Shown here piece by piece: positions 80 to 39,471 of a DNA stretch of 41,971 nucleotides (the first letter of the stretch is position 1; each line of letters starts with the position of its first letter). The DNA is from Pseudomonadales bacterium. Lineage in GTDB: Bacteria > Pseudomonadota > Gammaproteobacteria > Pseudomonadales > Pseudohongiellaceae. The translations under genes were made by a program, and so were the position numbers. The notes beneath the pieces are model-generated. The model was not told the origin of the DNA. It worked only from the letters and a program-made list of their open reading frames with translations, and did no database searches. The stretch spans positions 1 to 41,971 of the forward strand of contig JAJECW010000137.1 of the NCBI GenBank assembly GCA_022821865.1. The letters run 5' to 3'.

Positions 80-160
80 AGTTCGTAAGCAAAACAAAAC
101 CACGCTTTTGTTTTGCGATAATGAAAAATTCCAGGGAGGGAATTTTTCAGAGAATACTTA
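80..160 (+). repeat. 81-bp double-hairpin repeat, copy 1
   Basis: Two perfect hairpins follow each other. The first (89-116) has 11-bp arms GCAAAACAAAA/TTTTGTTTTGC around CCACGC. The second (123-148) has 10-bp arms GAAAAATTCC/GGAATTTTTC around AGGGAG. The element ends with AGAGAATACTTA. A near-identical copy lies in inverted orientation at 23329-23409. I count three differences (positions 81, 87 and 118), all transitions and all outside stems and loops. It lies about 140 bp upstream of the ATPase gene at 302. The AT-rich stems stand out against GC-rich DNA. It could be a REP-like element, a small mobile element or a structured leader. Confidence 0.85.
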
Positions 161-301
161 GAAAATCTCGGCCAGTATTCGCAAACTATCAAAAATAGGG
201 GGTTATATACATGGTTAGACAACCGGCATTTCATCACGACTGTATCGGCGCAGTGGGCTAAGAGTGTTGTAAAAAGCGCATCATAATGCTATTTTTGCAA
301 C

Positions 302-1474
302 ATGTTTGAGCGTCGTATCCAACAATCTGTCGAAGATCTGCTAGCGGAACAGGCTGCGGTTGCGCTGTTGGGCTCGCGACAGGTCGGGAAGACCACCCTC
401 GCGCTCGAAATCGGTCGTTCGCGCAATGCGGCATACTTCGATCTGGAGAATCCGGCGGATCGGGCGGCGCTTGACAGCCCCGTCGATCTTCTTCCCCGAT
501 TCGAGGATATACTGGTCATCATCGACGAAATCCAGCGTTTGCCGGGATTGTTCGAACCCGTTCGCGGGTTGATCGACAGCTATCGGAGAAAAGGCAGGGG
601 AATCGGAAAATTCCTGTTTCTCGGGTCGGCTTCGATAGATCTGCTGCGACAGACTTCCGAATCGCTCGCGGGGCGCGTGGCCTATCGGGAACTGAATCCA
701 TTCGATCTGATCGAAGTCGCCGGTTCGGGCGACATGGCGATGGAACGACTCTGGCTGCGCGGCGGTTATCCAGATTCGTTTCTCGCCAAATCCGATCGCT
801 CCAGTATGAATTGGAGACGGGATTTTGTCCGCACTTACCTGGAGCGCGACATTCCGCAATTCGATTCCCGGGTGCCGGAAGAAACCTTGCGCCGATTCTG
901 GACCATGCTGGCCCACGGTCAGGGTAGCCTCCTGAATGCCGCAAAACTCGGCTCGGCCCTCGCGATAGATGTCCGCACACTCAATCGGTATCTGGACCTG
1001 CTGGTTGACCTCTTGCTCGTGCGCCGCCTTCAGCCTTGGCACGCGAATATCGGAAAACGTCTCGTCAGATCTCCCAAGATCTATTTGAGGGATACCGGAA
1101 TCCTCCACGGCCTGCTGAATCTTGAATCTCTCAAGGACATGCTGAGCCATCCGATAGCCGGAATGAGTTGGGAGGGATTTGTGGTCGAGAGCATTCTCAA
1201 CGTGGCGCCGCACTGGGTGCTGCCTTTTTTCTATCGAACCCAGCGCGGTGCGGAAGTCGATCTCGTTCTTGAGTTCAGCCCCGAAGAACGCTGGGGCATA
1301 GAGATAAAGCGTTCCATGTCCGCGCCAAATCCGTCCGCAGGATTCCATCGTGGTTGTGAAGATATTGGCGCCAAACGCCGCCTCGTCGTGTATTCGGGCA
1401 AACACACCTATATCCAGGCGGGAAAGGTGGAAACTTTACCGCTGGAGAAGTTCCTTGAGGAACTGGCCCGATGA
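302..1474 (+). CDS. AAA ATPase with C-terminal DUF4143 (PD-(D/E)XK-like) domain
   Basis: This 390-residue protein belongs to the AAA_14/DUF4143 family. The Walker A motif GSRQVGKTT has its lysine at residue 30, and a Walker B-like string (VIIDEIQRL) follows near residue 75. The C-terminal part carries AEVDLVLE and GIEIKRS, giving D320 and E334-x-K336, which fits the D...ExK signature of PD-(D/E)XK nucleases. DUF4143 is, as I recall, assigned to that superfamily; cleavage activity is not established. It closely resembles the gene at 22084-23271, sharing segments such as WLRGG, RTYLERD and GKRLVRSPK. Both have the 81-bp double hairpin upstream. No clear Shine-Dalgarno precedes the ATG. It is alone on its strand, with no visible partner. 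Confidence 0.85.
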   Translation: MFERRIQQSVEDLLAEQAAVALLGSRQVGKTTLALEIGRSRNAAYFDLENPADRAALDSPVDLLPRFEDILVIIDEIQRLPGLFEPVRGLIDSYRRKGRGIGKFLFLGSASIDLLRQTSESLAGRVAYRELNPFDLIEVAGSGDMAMERLWLRGGYPDSFLAKSDRSSMNWRRDFVRTYLERDIPQFDSRVPEETLRRFWTMLAHGQGSLLNAAKLGSALAIDVRTLNRYLDLLVDLLLVRRLQPWHANIGKRLVRSPKIYLRDTGILHGLLNLESLKDMLSHPIAGMSWEGFVVESILNVAPHWVLPFFYRTQRGAEVDLVLEFSPEERWGIEIKRSMSAPNPSAGFHRGCEDIGAKRRLVVYSGKHTYIQAGKVETLPLEKFLEELAR

Positions 1475-22083: not shown

Positions 22084-23271
22084 CTACATTGGCAATATTT
22101 CGTTTGCCAGCGTGGCAAGTGGAACCGCCCGGATTCGCTCGTGCAGGCGGTAGACGCGGTCGCCGGGGTAGATGACGTCGATGCGTTCGAGTTCGAGAGT
22201 CTCCAGCGCCGAAAGCATGGAGCGGGTGCGCTTCGGGGCATCGGTGCGTTTGAACTCAAAGCCGAATCTGCGCGTCCCGCGGCTTACCAGCAGGTCGAGT
22301 TCGGCGCCGCCCTGAGTCGCCCAGTACCAGGCGTCGCCGGGAGGAACTTCGAGCAGACGCAGCACCTGCTCCAGCGCGAAACCTTCAAAACTTGCGCCCA
22401 CCTTGGGATGCCCGGCGAGTTCCCGGGGCGTTGTGACCCGGAGCAGGCTGTGGAGCAAGCCTGAGTCCGCGATGTAAACCTTCGGCGATTTGACGATTCG
22501 CTTGCCGGGATTGACGGTCCATGGTCGTAGCTGACGCACCATGAAAGTCGAACCCAGCAAATCGAGATAACGGCGCACCGCGGTGTGGGAAACGCCGAAA
22601 GCGCGCCCGATTTCCGACCCGTTCCAGGTCTGGCCGTGATAATGCGCAAGCATGGTCCAGAAGTCCCCCATGGTGCGGGATGGAATGTTGGATCCAAGGC
22701 CCGGCAAATCCCTTTCCAGAAACGTGCGGGTAAAGTTTCGCCGCCATTCCATGCTCTGCCGGTGGGTGTCCGGCAGATAGGCCCGGGGGAATCCGCCCCG
22801 GAGCCACAGTCGCCGCCAGTTTTCCGGCCCGGTCTCCACCATGTCGAATCCGGGCAACTCGTGAAAGGCGATGCGGCCGGCCAGCGATTCCGATCCCTGA
22901 TGCAGCAATTCCGGCGAGGCGCTGCCCAGCACCAGGAATCTGGCCGGCGAAGGAGAGCGGTCCGCCAGCACCCGCAGTACGGGAAAGAGTTCAGGACGCA
23001 GTTGCACCTCGTCAATGACGATCAATCCGCGCAACGGCTCAAGCGCCAGCATCGGCTCGTCGAACTGGCCAAGGTCACGGGGGTCTTCAAGGTCGAACCG
23101 GGTAGCTTCGCCATTCCAGCCGCGCATCAGGGCATTGGCAAGCGTCGTCTTGCCCACCTGTCGCGCTCCAAGCAGCGCCACCACCGGATTTTCCCCCAGC
23201 AGCCTGATCAGATTGCGCTCATGCAATGTTCTGGAAACTTCACGCATCTGCGGATATTGAACGATTGTCAT
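22084..23271 (-). CDS. AAA ATPase with C-terminal DUF4143 (PD-(D/E)XK-like) domain, second copy
   Basis: A 395-residue relative of the gene at 302. Walker A is GARQVGKTT (K41) and Walker B LIVIDEVQ. The C-terminal motif has D326 (ELDLLVS) and E339-x-K341 (GFEFKRT), so the D...ExK set looks intact. Shared strings with the first copy include RTFLERD, FWTMLAH and GKRIVKSPK; the two look roughly half identical by eye. Either ATG 23271 or an internal ATG 24 bp on could be the start; no strong Shine-Dalgarno precedes either. The 81-bp double hairpin lies 57 bp upstream in the same orientation relative to the gene as at the first copy. Two inverted repeats cover the start region. The downstream ATPase gene may be its partner. 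Confidence 0.85.
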   Translation of the reverse strand: MTIVQYPQMREVSRTLHERNLIRLLGENPVVALLGARQVGKTTLANALMRGWNGEATRFDLEDPRDLGQFDEPMLALEPLRGLIVIDEVQLRPELFPVLRVLADRSPSPARFLVLGSASPELLHQGSESLAGRIAFHELPGFDMVETGPENWRRLWLRGGFPRAYLPDTHRQSMEWRRNFTRTFLERDLPGLGSNIPSRTMGDFWTMLAHYHGQTWNGSEIGRAFGVSHTAVRRYLDLLGSTFMVRQLRPWTVNPGKRIVKSPKVYIADSGLLHSLLRVTTPRELAGHPKVGASFEGFALEQVLRLLEVPPGDAWYWATQGGAELDLLVSRGTRRFGFEFKRTDAPKRTRSMLSALETLELERIDVIYPGDRVYRLHERIRAVPLATLANEILPM

Positions 23272-23301: not shown

Positions 23302-23328
23302 TGTTCGCCGAGCCAGTCTCGCTACCAC

Positions 23329-23409
23329 TAAGTATTCTCTGAAAAATTCCCTCCCTGGAATTTTTCATTACCGCAAAACAAAAGCGTGGTTTTGTTTTGC
23401 TCACGAATT
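23329..23409 (-). repeat. 81-bp double-hairpin repeat, copy 2
   Basis: This is the inverted partner of 80-160. Both stems are identical to copy 1: GAAAAATTCC/GGAATTTTTC at 23341-23366 and GCAAAACAAAA/TTTTGTTTTGC at 23373-23400. Read toward the ATPase gene at 23271, the order of hairpins matches copy 1. The flanks diverge on both sides, so 81 bp appears to be the repeated unit. Confidence 0.85.
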
Positions 23410-23557
23410 CAATGGCTTGCTCCAGTCACGGAGCATAGCTCCGTACCGTTGCGGCCGCGCTCGAAGCTGCGCTTCGAAAACGCTTGCCTTCACCCATCGA
23501 ATTCGGAGGCACTTCCATGTGCCGCAGGGAAGCTCTGACTTAATCAGAGCTTCCCTG
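23404..23557. other. Run of four further hairpins, structured non-coding DNA
   Basis: Directly after the double hairpin come ACGGAGC/GCTCCGT (23428-23444), TCGAAGC/GCTTCGA (23461-23477), GGCAC/GTGCC (23508-23523) and a 14-bp perfect stem CAGGGAAGCTCTGA/TCAGAGCTTCCCTG (23525-23557, loop CTTAA). The first two sit inside an outer inverted repeat, CGAATTCAATGG (23404-23415) against CCATCGAATTCG (23494-23505), with 11 of 12 matching. No open frame with a ribosome-binding site covers it. It may be a structured RNA, a recombination site or a cluster of element ends. Confidence 0.7.
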
Positions 23558-23558
23558 A

Positions 23559-23825
23559 TTGGATGAAATCGATGCCAAGCGGCCCGAACAGGAGCCATGG
23601 GAAAGGCAGCAAAAGGCTATCGATGATGTCGTCCTGGGATTGGGCAACCATGATCGCGGTCGCCTCATCATGGCCTGTGGAACCGGCAAGACCTTCACTT
23701 CCTTGCGAATCGCTGAGCGGATCGTGAAAGATGGCGAGTCAATTTTGTTCGCTGCGCCAAGCATTGCGCTGGTTTCTCAGGCGCGGCGCGAATGGCTGCG
23801 ACATACCCGGCGCAGGCTCCTATAG
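23559..23825 (+). pseudogene. Fragment of a large restriction helicase (type ISP-like)
   Basis: The 88-residue frame reads like the first helicase motifs of a large restriction enzyme: ERQQKAIDDVV, motif I IMACGTGKTFTSLRIAE, then ILFAAPSIALVSQARREW (motif Ia region). This pattern is known from type ISP single-chain restriction-modification enzymes such as LlaGI. Those run to about 1,500 residues, so most of the gene is missing. The fragment is bounded by an in-frame stop overlapping the last hairpin (23556) on the left and breaks after EWLRHTRR on the right. There the 14-bp word at 23808-23821 occurs. The first codon is TTG without a ribosome-binding site. No nuclease or methylase part remains nearby. 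Confidence 0.7.
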
Positions 23826-23894: not shown

Positions 23895-25103
23895 CTAAAC
23901 CAATTGCGAAAGGAATGTCCTGGCGGGGACGATGGTGGGCTTGTTGCGCTCGAAGCAGTCGGCTTCGATGTAATCGAGATCGAATGCGATCTGGAAGGCG
24001 TGGCTGGCGCCGGTTTGGGATTGGAACAGGGGGAGGGATTTGGAAAGCTCCGCCCGGCCGCTGGTTTTCACTTCGGCGAGAAACCAGGGGCGCTGGTTCC
24101 GGGTGACGAGGAAATCCACTTCGCGTTTTTGCTTGTCCCTGACGAAATGCAGCCCGAACTCGCCGTGGCCGGCCTCGGTCCACCAGTGGGTGGCCTTCAG
24201 CAGGGCGCTGGCGACGAGGTTTTCCGCCCTGGCGCCGGGGTCTTCGATCTGGGACCAGTCCCAGAGATAGAATTTGGGTTCCTTGCGCAAGCCGCGGGTT
24301 ACATTGCGATGCCAGGGGCGCACACTGAAACAGTAATACAGCGACTCGAGCACGGCGGTCCAGCGGCGGATGCTGTCGACCGACGCCCGGACTTCGCGCG
24401 CCAGCTTTGCATGGCTGGTGAGTTGGCCGACGTGTCTTGCAAGATTGATCGCCAGCATTTCCACCTGGCCGAGTTCCTGGATTCTGGTCAGGTCGCGCAG
24501 GTCTTCCCGCAGCAATTGTTCATTGCGCAGTTTTTTCCAGCGTGCGTGGAAGCGGTCATCGGCCTTGAGAAAGGGTTCCGGGAAACCGCCGTGGCGCCAC
24601 AGCGCCCGCCACTGGACTTCGTCGATGGCACCGGGCGGGGAGACCAGCGAGTCCGTATCGCCTGTGTTCAGGCATTCCGCCAGCGAAAGCGGGTGAAGCG
24701 TGTGAGGGAAATAGCGCCCCATGAGGCTGTCGCCGGCGCGCTTGAACACGTCGAGGCGCGCGCTGCCGGTAACGAAAACATGTGCCTGGTTTTCATGCAC
24801 GTCAAAGAACCCCTTGAGGAAGTCCCGCCAGCCACGGTATTTGTGCAGTTCGTCAAAGGCGCAGAAGGGTTTTTCGGCGAGCAGCCGGTCAAGCCCCAGC
24901 AGCCCGGCAACGGCTTCCGGCCCGTCAAGGATTGACCCGCGATGGGTCTGGTTGTCCCAGTTGAAATATTCTCCCGAGGCAAAGCTTTCTCCGAGTTGCC
25001 GGGCGATAGTCGTCTTGCCCACCTGTCTTGGGCCGGAAACCAGCAGCATTTGCCGGTTCTGCCGGAAATGAGCCAGGAAACTCTCCAGGTATCGCCGTTG
25101 CAT
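23895..25103 (-). CDS. AAA ATPase with C-terminal DUF4143 (PD-(D/E)XK-like) domain, third copy
   Basis: A 402-residue AAA_14/DUF4143-type protein, more distant from the other two. Walker A is GPRQVGKTT (K30); the Walker B position reads FCAFDELHK. VFVTGSARLDVF is a sensor-like strand. The C-terminal region has D330 (REVDFLVTR) and E344-x-K346 (LAEVKTS), a clear D...ExK pattern. ATG 25103 is chosen because AAAGG lies just upstream; an in-frame TTG at 25124 is possible. It has its own promoter at 25146-25173. No double hairpin precedes it. Family members are widespread and mostly uncharacterised. Confidence 0.85.
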   Translation of the reverse strand: MQRRYLESFLAHFRQNRQMLLVSGPRQVGKTTIARQLGESFASGEYFNWDNQTHRGSILDGPEAVAGLLGLDRLLAEKPFCAFDELHKYRGWRDFLKGFFDVHENQAHVFVTGSARLDVFKRAGDSLMGRYFPHTLHPLSLAECLNTGDTDSLVSPPGAIDEVQWRALWRHGGFPEPFLKADDRFHARWKKLRNEQLLREDLRDLTRIQELGQVEMLAINLARHVGQLTSHAKLAREVRASVDSIRRWTAVLESLYYCFSVRPWHRNVTRGLRKEPKFYLWDWSQIEDPGARAENLVASALLKATHWWTEAGHGEFGLHFVRDKQKREVDFLVTRNQRPWFLAEVKTSGRAELSKSLPLFQSQTGASHAFQIAFDLDYIEADCFERNKPTIVPARTFLSQLV

Positions 25104-25145
25104 GAATTTGACCTTTTGATGCAATGTCGTAGAAAAATCATGACT

Positions 25146-39310: not shown

Positions 39311-39471
39311 GGAGCCTGCGCCGTAGGAATTCACGGCTGCAAATCCGCACCCGTCCACGCCCCTGGCCGCTCGATTTCGTTGCATATTCACCAATATTCG
39401 CCTCAATCGACCGGCCAGGGGCGCGGCGATAGCGAATTTTCGCTTTCGCGAATTCCTACGGCGCAGGCTCC
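39311..39471. mobile_element. 161-bp three-tier palindrome, MITE-like
   Basis: Three inverted repeats share one centre near 39391. The outer arms are 22 bp and perfect (39311-39332 and 39450-39471, ending GGAGCCTGCG/CGCAGGCTCC). The middle arms are 17 bp with one mismatch (39358-39374 and 39407-39423). The inner pair is ATATT/AATAT (39384-39397). Two unpaired segments of about 25 bp separate the tiers. There is no coding capacity. The layout fits a miniature transposable element or a large foldback RNA. It separates the rhodanese and rsgA genes. Confidence 0.65.

Follow-up and report, generated by a model that had tools for sequence, protein, structure and literature searches.

A dispersed five-hairpin element of Pseudomonadales that moves like an IS5-type MITE and carries predicted CsrA-type hairpins

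BOX, RUP, Correia and ERIC are small mobile intergenic repeats that are able to act in RNA, and BOX is also modular; to our knowledge, none of the four is described with paired CsrA-type loops. Several A(N)GGA-loop hairpins on one RNA are a feature of CsrB, RsmY and RsmZ. The published part of this recognition code used here comes from excerpts of two papers, which give RUACARGGAUGU as the SELEX site of CsrA, with short stems favoured among the ligands (PMC7652899), and an ANGGAN hexaloop on a stem, its N looped out or variable, as the high-affinity site of RsmE (PMC4005645). IS5-type MITEs are short, non-coding and multicopy, with imperfect terminal repeats and 4-bp YTAR duplications, YTAR being the target motif of IS5 (PMC10359306, in excerpt). 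Here we describe an element found as an inverted pair in a stretch of 41,971 nucleotides (the window) from a bacterium of the Pseudohongiellaceae, order Pseudomonadales (contig JAJECW010000137.1). It shares all these traits of IS5-type MITEs; unlike them, it has a body made almost entirely of conserved hairpins with compensatory changes, its size classes differ by whole hairpins lost or gained, and no autonomous partner was found for it. Like CsrB, RsmY and RsmZ, it places A(N)GGA loops together on one RNA, and some of its relatives stand in tandem (L302, L306, L318 and L323). Unlike these RNAs, it is dispersed in the genome and mobile, has two GGA hairpins per unit and gave no match to their Rfam families in the window and the 12 loci scanned. 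We favor, with a probability of roughly 0.6, the reading that it is a small non-coding MITE-like element, moved in trans, whose read-through RNA would show two CsrA/RsmA-type hairpins acting as recruiters or decoys.

The original prediction had placed an 81-bp double-hairpin unit at positions 80-160 and, inverted, at 23329-23409, each time upstream of an AAA_14/DUF4143 ATPase gene. This pair is real, as a repeat search of the window returned a single inverted pair (82-161 and 23328-23407) of 80 nt that is 98% complementary. Reading both copies also bore out the three transitions reported between them, all outside stems and loops (positions 81, 87 and 118 of copy 1). The two hairpins fold as claimed (-23.5 kcal/mol, an energy reached by none of 200 shuffles; z -4.56), and at both places the ATPase gene is the next one downstream in the orientation of the element (Table 1). 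The 81-bp unit is, nevertheless, only the 3' part of a longer element, which at 23 kb is 223 bp long, a size class also found among other copies. The left-hand 4-mer of copy 2, TCAG at 23555-23558, is one base off the right-hand TTAG. Upstream of the truncated copy 1, positions 1-81 are unlike the element, and the match of the covariance model R1 at 3-157 had its first half fitted to an unrelated hairpin.

Table 1. Element copies, their hairpins and the downstream genes in the window.
Feature	Position	Strand	Basis or detail
Copy 2, complete 223-bp element (H1-H2-H3 with 72-nt insert-H4-H5-right end)	23332..23554	-	R1 covariance model, 150.8 bits, E 6.1e-52, model 1-151
H1 of copy 2, includes left terminal repeat GGAAGCTCTGATTAAG	23528..23554	-	R1 match; alignment A1 columns 1-27
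H2 of copy 2, loop ATGGAA at 23513-23518 (ANGGAN, CsrA-type)	23506..23525	-	R1 match, loop columns
H3 of copy 2, extra 72-nt insert replacing the GNRA loop of the 151-bp form	23404..23505	-	R1 match
H4 of copy 2, stem and loop CCACGC near-invariant	23373..23400	-	Alignment
H5 of copy 2, loop AGGGAG at 23351-23356 (ANGGAN, CsrA-type)	23340..23367	-	R1 match, loop columns
Right-hand target 4-mer of copy 2, TTAG (YTAR)	23328..23331	-	Row L003
Copy 1, 5'-truncated element (H4, H5 and right end only)	82..157	+	Sequence reading, repeat search
H4 of copy 1	89..116	+	Fold
H5 of copy 1, loop AGGGAG at 133-138	122..149	+	Fold
Right-hand YTAR 4-mer of copy 1, TTAG	158..161	+	Sequence reading
AAA_14/DUF4143 ATPase downstream of copy 1 (bystander)	302..1474	+	Start codon 144 bp past copy 1 end
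AAA_14/DUF4143 ATPase downstream of copy 2 (bystander)	22084..23271	-	Start codon 60 bp past copy 2 end

A second palindromic repeat family (GGAGCCTGCGCCG ... CGGCGCAGGCTCC) lies at 39311-39471 of the window, with a single end at 23808-23820, and was also seen at loci L145, L168, L203 and L206; its sites, too, resemble CTAG. Allowing one mismatch at most, its end sequence occurs in 93 of 365 loci, a non-random set, and the five-hairpin element is often found at its edge and once inside it.

Within the genome of origin, a pattern for the H4-H5 junction core (up to three mismatches) matched 81 times on the forward and 69 times on the reverse strand, for a total of 150 copies, and its reversed control gave 0 matches there. 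Many near-identical copies were also retrieved from this genome by BLAST, with a copy number that is a lower bound because 40 of 211 candidates were scored. Strong BLAST matches came from the genome of origin and from 5 of the 36 other congeneric genomes examined, matches elsewhere being short and weak only (13 of 58 at E <= 0.1). The standard form measures 151 bp and consists of five hairpins, namely H1 (GGAAGCTCTGA...TCAGAGCTTCC), H2 (GCGGCACANGGATGTGCCGC), H3 (CGAATTC...GAATTCG, with a mostly GNRA loop), H4 (GCAAAACAAAA-CCACGC-TTTTGTTTTGC) and H5 (TGAAAAATTCC-ANGGAN-GGAATTTTTCA), followed by GAGAATAC; the element ends are GGAAGCTCTGATTAAG and GTATTCTCTGA. Among 85 measured copies, 52 were of 151 bp, 13 of 223 bp and 12 of 99 bp, the others being a few bases off or singletons. 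The 223-bp form carries a 72-nt insert in the H3 loop, the 99-bp form is H1-H4-H5, and there are shorter forms as well, measuring about 85 and 72 bp. Many contigs of the draft genome start or stop at or inside the element (among about 100 of the 150 places listed), as expected since it is a repeat. A phage or plasmid origin was rejected: two pattern scans of viral_contigs gave 0 matches, and the phage and plasmid searches gave no convincing match, the latter returning two 30-base Mycolicibacterium matches at E 8e-3.

Both ends could be recognised in 85 of 173 copies, 81 of which had both flanking 4-mers. The left 4-mer was identical to the right one in 41 of these 81, against 12.5 ± 2.8 with shuffled pairing (18/43 versus 5.2 in the genome of origin and 23/38 versus 8.0 in other genomes). 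CTAG and TTAG were the commonest targets, and 54 of the 81 copies had a YTAR motif on the left side and 47 on the right. The terminal inverted repeats, GGAAGCTCTGATTAAGTC and GTATTCTCTGAAAAATTC, are imperfect, with 12 of 18 positions matching by eye. Uninterrupted sites, in which the element is removed and one 4-mer kept, were found for L167 of the genome of origin in two other species (L158 and L106), for L279 in L286 (and L135) and for L336, also of the genome of origin, in L156, where one base of the 4-mer differs; the uninterrupted site of L145 consisted of copies of another repeat family. Flanks aligned poorly on the right side for L122 versus L057, and small further indels lay near some insertion junctions. 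Because of the 4-bp YTAR duplications and the uninterrupted sites in related species, it is well supported that the element moved like an IS5-type MITE. Target duplications were present in copies of all three main sizes, so only the element ends seem to be needed for movement. A YTAR site can also hold a stop codon, which accounts for gene ends at the start of the element: among 31 codirectional upstream genes called, 11 had their end no more than 5 nt from where a 151-bp element starts, and for 7 of these the two positions coincided. At one site (L010 and L197, from two genomes), the element lies behind the same gene end in opposite orientations, as a 223-bp and a 151-bp copy, as if the site had been hit twice.

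The 4-bp length of the target duplications indicates a DDE enzyme, and we infer a DDE transposase of IS5-like specificity acting in trans; the searches turned up no transposase flanked by the ends of the element. No matching end pair was seen around any of the 7 PF01609 transposase loci of the genome of origin, nor around the 30 loci examined among 45 PF01609 matches in 8 related genomes, and PF13546 gave 0 matches in 14 genomes. Across 947 kb of loci, 9 end pairs were spaced 0.3-3.5 kb apart, none with identical 4-mers, and were read as ends of separate copies; these PF01609, PF13546 and end-pair searches thus brought up no autonomous partner. Draft assemblies often lose IS copies. An integron attC origin, prompted by a 140-bp repeat of Saccharophagus (PMC2386152, in excerpt), was set aside, as the copies in genome G298 are far apart on the chromosome and have separate hairpins.

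Conservation of the hairpins was assessed in an alignment (A1) gathered by H4-core and BLAST searches, not by loops. From 92 complete copies, 44 of 135-165 bp below 95.5% identity were retained and 43 were used, L035 being left out for its aberrant left end. In these 43 diverse copies, 97.2% of cells pair, and changes on both sides were found in 15 of 54 pairs against 5.6 after shuffling (54 cells against 9.2; 0 of 500 shuffles as high), with slid-structure controls showing 5-6 such pairs. Compensated variation was found in H1, H2, H3 and H5 and none in the nearly invariant H4, and the fold of one copy reached a z of -10.8. That the 151-bp form has five hairpins conserved as structure is well supported. 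Together with the mobility described above, signs of both selection on structure and recent spread, proposed as alternatives in the original prediction, were found.

The loops of H2 and H5 read ANGGAN. Departures from the majority base made up 10 of 343 cells (2.9%) in the eight A-GGA columns, 82 of 171 (48%) in the four N columns and 192 of 970 (20%) in the other unpaired columns (H1 loop, linkers and tail). The contrast was significant by cells (Fisher P 6.6e-17, with cells that are not independent because the copies are related) and by columns (Mann-Whitney P 2e-4). Three of the four N positions (columns 38, 129 and 133) are the three most variable of the whole element by entropy. Conservation is not confined to the GGA loops, as 5 of 258 cells were off majority in the H4 loop and 7 of 129 at the fixed H3-loop positions, and H4 with its loop is as conserved as the GGA loops. 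The H2 consensus fits ACANGGAUGU, 13 of 43 copies having A and not U at the last loop position, and H5 of the diverged copy L301, GUACAGGGAUGU, has the full published CsrA consensus. The stems of H2 and H5 are long, in contrast to the short ones favored in SELEX. In the short forms, H5 is possibly kept only through the abutting right end. Judging from sequence and structure, we predict that the element binds CsrA and mediates regulation by it.

Diverged relatives extend this pattern beyond the closely related copies. Of 84 genomes from the genus, 17 had matches to model R1 at E <= 0.01 (36 candidates scored per genome, so that copy numbers are lower bounds). In seven of these 17, the loci that were read proved to be diverged forms, which keep the order H2-H3-GCGAG-H4-CGAC-H5 but have other stem sequences, H2 being lost or rearranged in L305 and L320; ten diverged sequences showed changes on both sides in 32 of 43 pairs. 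A second model, R2, built on the diverged forms, matched 19 of 293 genomes of the order at E <= 1e-4, from 12 of 118 genera, 13 of the matching genomes having at least two matches (copy numbers again being lower bounds, from 11 candidates scored per genome). In 43 aligned R2 matches (A3), 14 of which came from the loci behind R2 and all of which were aligned by fitting to the model, 40 of 43 pairs had changed on both sides, in 462 cells against 120.5 after shuffling and at most 88 in slid controls. These matches, found with a model already holding the loops, had A(N)GGA in 33 of 40 H2 and 36 of 42 H5 loops (one H5 row masked by N being omitted), leaving 7 and 6 loops, respectively, without the motif; column by column, H2 has C 97%, A 95%, N, G 95%, G 95%, A 93%, N, G 97%. 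Three diverged loci (L325, L341 and L342) have an extra 5' hairpin whose end recurs at the 3' end of the unit (CTATTAAC...GTTAATAG or GTTAAT), which suggests that these forms, too, may be mobile with terminal repeats.

Tandem arrangements, seen in L341 in addition to the four loci named above, comprise two or more whole or partial units. In L305 and L321, a terminator-like hairpin with a T run was noted by eye about 60 nt or less past the element. A known RNA family, CsrB, RsmY and RsmZ included, was rejected, as Rfam 15 gave no match in the window at the gathering score; for 12 loci, a limit of E 0.5 let through ivy-DE and sR17 alone, each scoring under the gathering threshold.

A single csrA match is present in the genome of origin (G000:C40:38590-38745, E 8.9e-25). 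Its product has 69 residues from the first ATG, and its best matches are solved CsrA/RsmA chains, also including 2jpp and 2mf*, which we take to be RsmE-RNA complexes. Because csrA occurs in many bacteria, its presence lends weak support to the CsrA reading. A 72-bp copy (H1 and H5, loop AGGGAG), flanked by TTAG and TTGG, lies at L290:1315-1386 and ends 114 nt before the csrA start; one such copy among about 150 could be chance. The same short copy creates a 48-codon open reading frame (within L290:1350-1500) that runs from H5 (ATGAAAAATTCC...) to a stop immediately ahead of the start codon of csrA. Orientation was examined in 79 copies of the genome of origin with enough 3' flank, duplicates removed, with neighboring genes called by a simple codon-score script. 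Six of the 79 lay inside a called gene, and 45 were intergenic with both neighbors called. Of these 45, 26 stood between codirectional genes (18 sense, 8 antisense), 13 between convergent genes and 6 between divergent ones. The order-wide set gave the same 18 sense and 8 antisense, with 4 convergent and 4 divergent, so that the sense excess had a P of 0.076 in each set and 0.008 when pooled. Gene 3' ends counted alone showed no orientation bias (31 sense versus 30 antisense).

The proximity to ATPase genes in the window had suggested a cognate leader RNA or a substrate site specific to AAA_14/DUF4143 ATPases, and the two copies do precede such genes by less than 150 bp, with the same orientation. 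Counted over the genome, which is rich in AAA_14/DUF4143 proteins, however, 150 core copies face 26 DUF4143 matches, 25 of them above the cut-off and three in the window (the third at 23895-25124), and copies dispersed elsewhere cannot serve this family; by the original prediction's own standard, this count goes against the ATPase-specific reading. The 26 loci (match ±1.5 kb where the contig allows) span 85.9 kb, for which 3.8 cores would be expected, and 5 of them have a core (P 0.33 for at least 5). In two of the five, the core is upstream of a window gene, in one (L090) upstream of a match below the cut-off, and in the other two 3' of the gene (L071 and a locus sharing window copy 2). In L090 (72-700, G000:C82), the copy lies directly upstream of an open stretch that holds only the C-terminal end of DUF4143 and is apparently a gene remnant. 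Cores thus stand upstream of 2 of 25 above-cut-off matches, or 3 of 26 with this remnant; for the remaining 23, no core was seen upstream as far as 1.5 kb from the match or the contig end. With a roughly estimated chance of 3-5% per gene, P is 0.18-0.38 for at least 2 of 26 and 0.04-0.14 for at least 3, a weak excess at most that is about the level of chance, and we consider a role specific to these ATPases extremely improbable. The REP-like hitch-hiker offered as the other option fared differently, in that a dispersed repeat is what we found and the REP/BIME type is not. The palindromic, intergenic and multicopy nature of the element would suit movement by a RAYT (Y1_Tnp) transposase, and Y1_Tnp genes occur in two order-wide carriers (G051 and G197). 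Yet Y1_Tnp gave 0 matches in the genome of origin (G000) and in seven carriers of the same genus (G020, G029, G032, G036, G091, G111 and G112), being found in 3 of 13 genomes searched, in one of them below the cut-off; together with the transposon-like 4-bp duplications indicative of a DDE enzyme, this makes the RAYT explanation very unlikely. Overall, the original interpretation was partly supported.

A more serious competitor, although still an unlikely one, is a neutral MITE whose hairpins and loops are kept only by the needs of its transposase or by arm-to-arm correction during palindrome replication, with no role in RNA. Arm-to-arm correction can yield paired changes without selection and could add to the compensatory signal, and terminal repeats, discrete sizes, YTAR duplications and the even split of orientations at gene 3' ends all sit well with neutrality. 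What a neutral MITE does not predict is a near-fixed A-GGA beside the most variable N in two separate loops, nor that most of these loops outlast the replacement of their stems in other genera. Both observations argue for the mobile element with CsrA/RsmA-type hairpins. According to this model, a DDE transposase of IS5-like specificity would move the 99-, 151- or 223-bp element in trans, with duplication of a 4-bp YTAR target. When transcription reads through from a neighboring gene, at whose stop codon the element often lies, the resulting RNA would display H2 and H5 as two CsrA/RsmA binding hairpins. Each transcribed copy could then recruit CsrA to that mRNA, and all copies together would form a set of dispersed CsrA decoys.

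Global RNA-binding regulators are usually thought to gain their targets mutation by mutation. No mobile CsrA hairpin element was reported in the open-access PMC literature, among the matches listed, and the structured family described here had no match in Rfam 15 where scanned (the window and 12 loci). More tentatively, the element may belong to a mobile family spanning the Pseudomonadales, with paired CsrA docking hairpins as conserved cargo, that wires new transcripts to CsrA by inserting at stop codons or between genes while its approximately 150 copies titrate the protein, so that a mobile repeat would have become part of the Csr system throughout the genome, the csrA leader included. If true, a transposable element with ready-made CsrA hairpins would put sets of genes under CsrA at once, its copies would buffer CsrA by their number, and the retention of both structure and loops by a dispersed repeat across genera would be explained.
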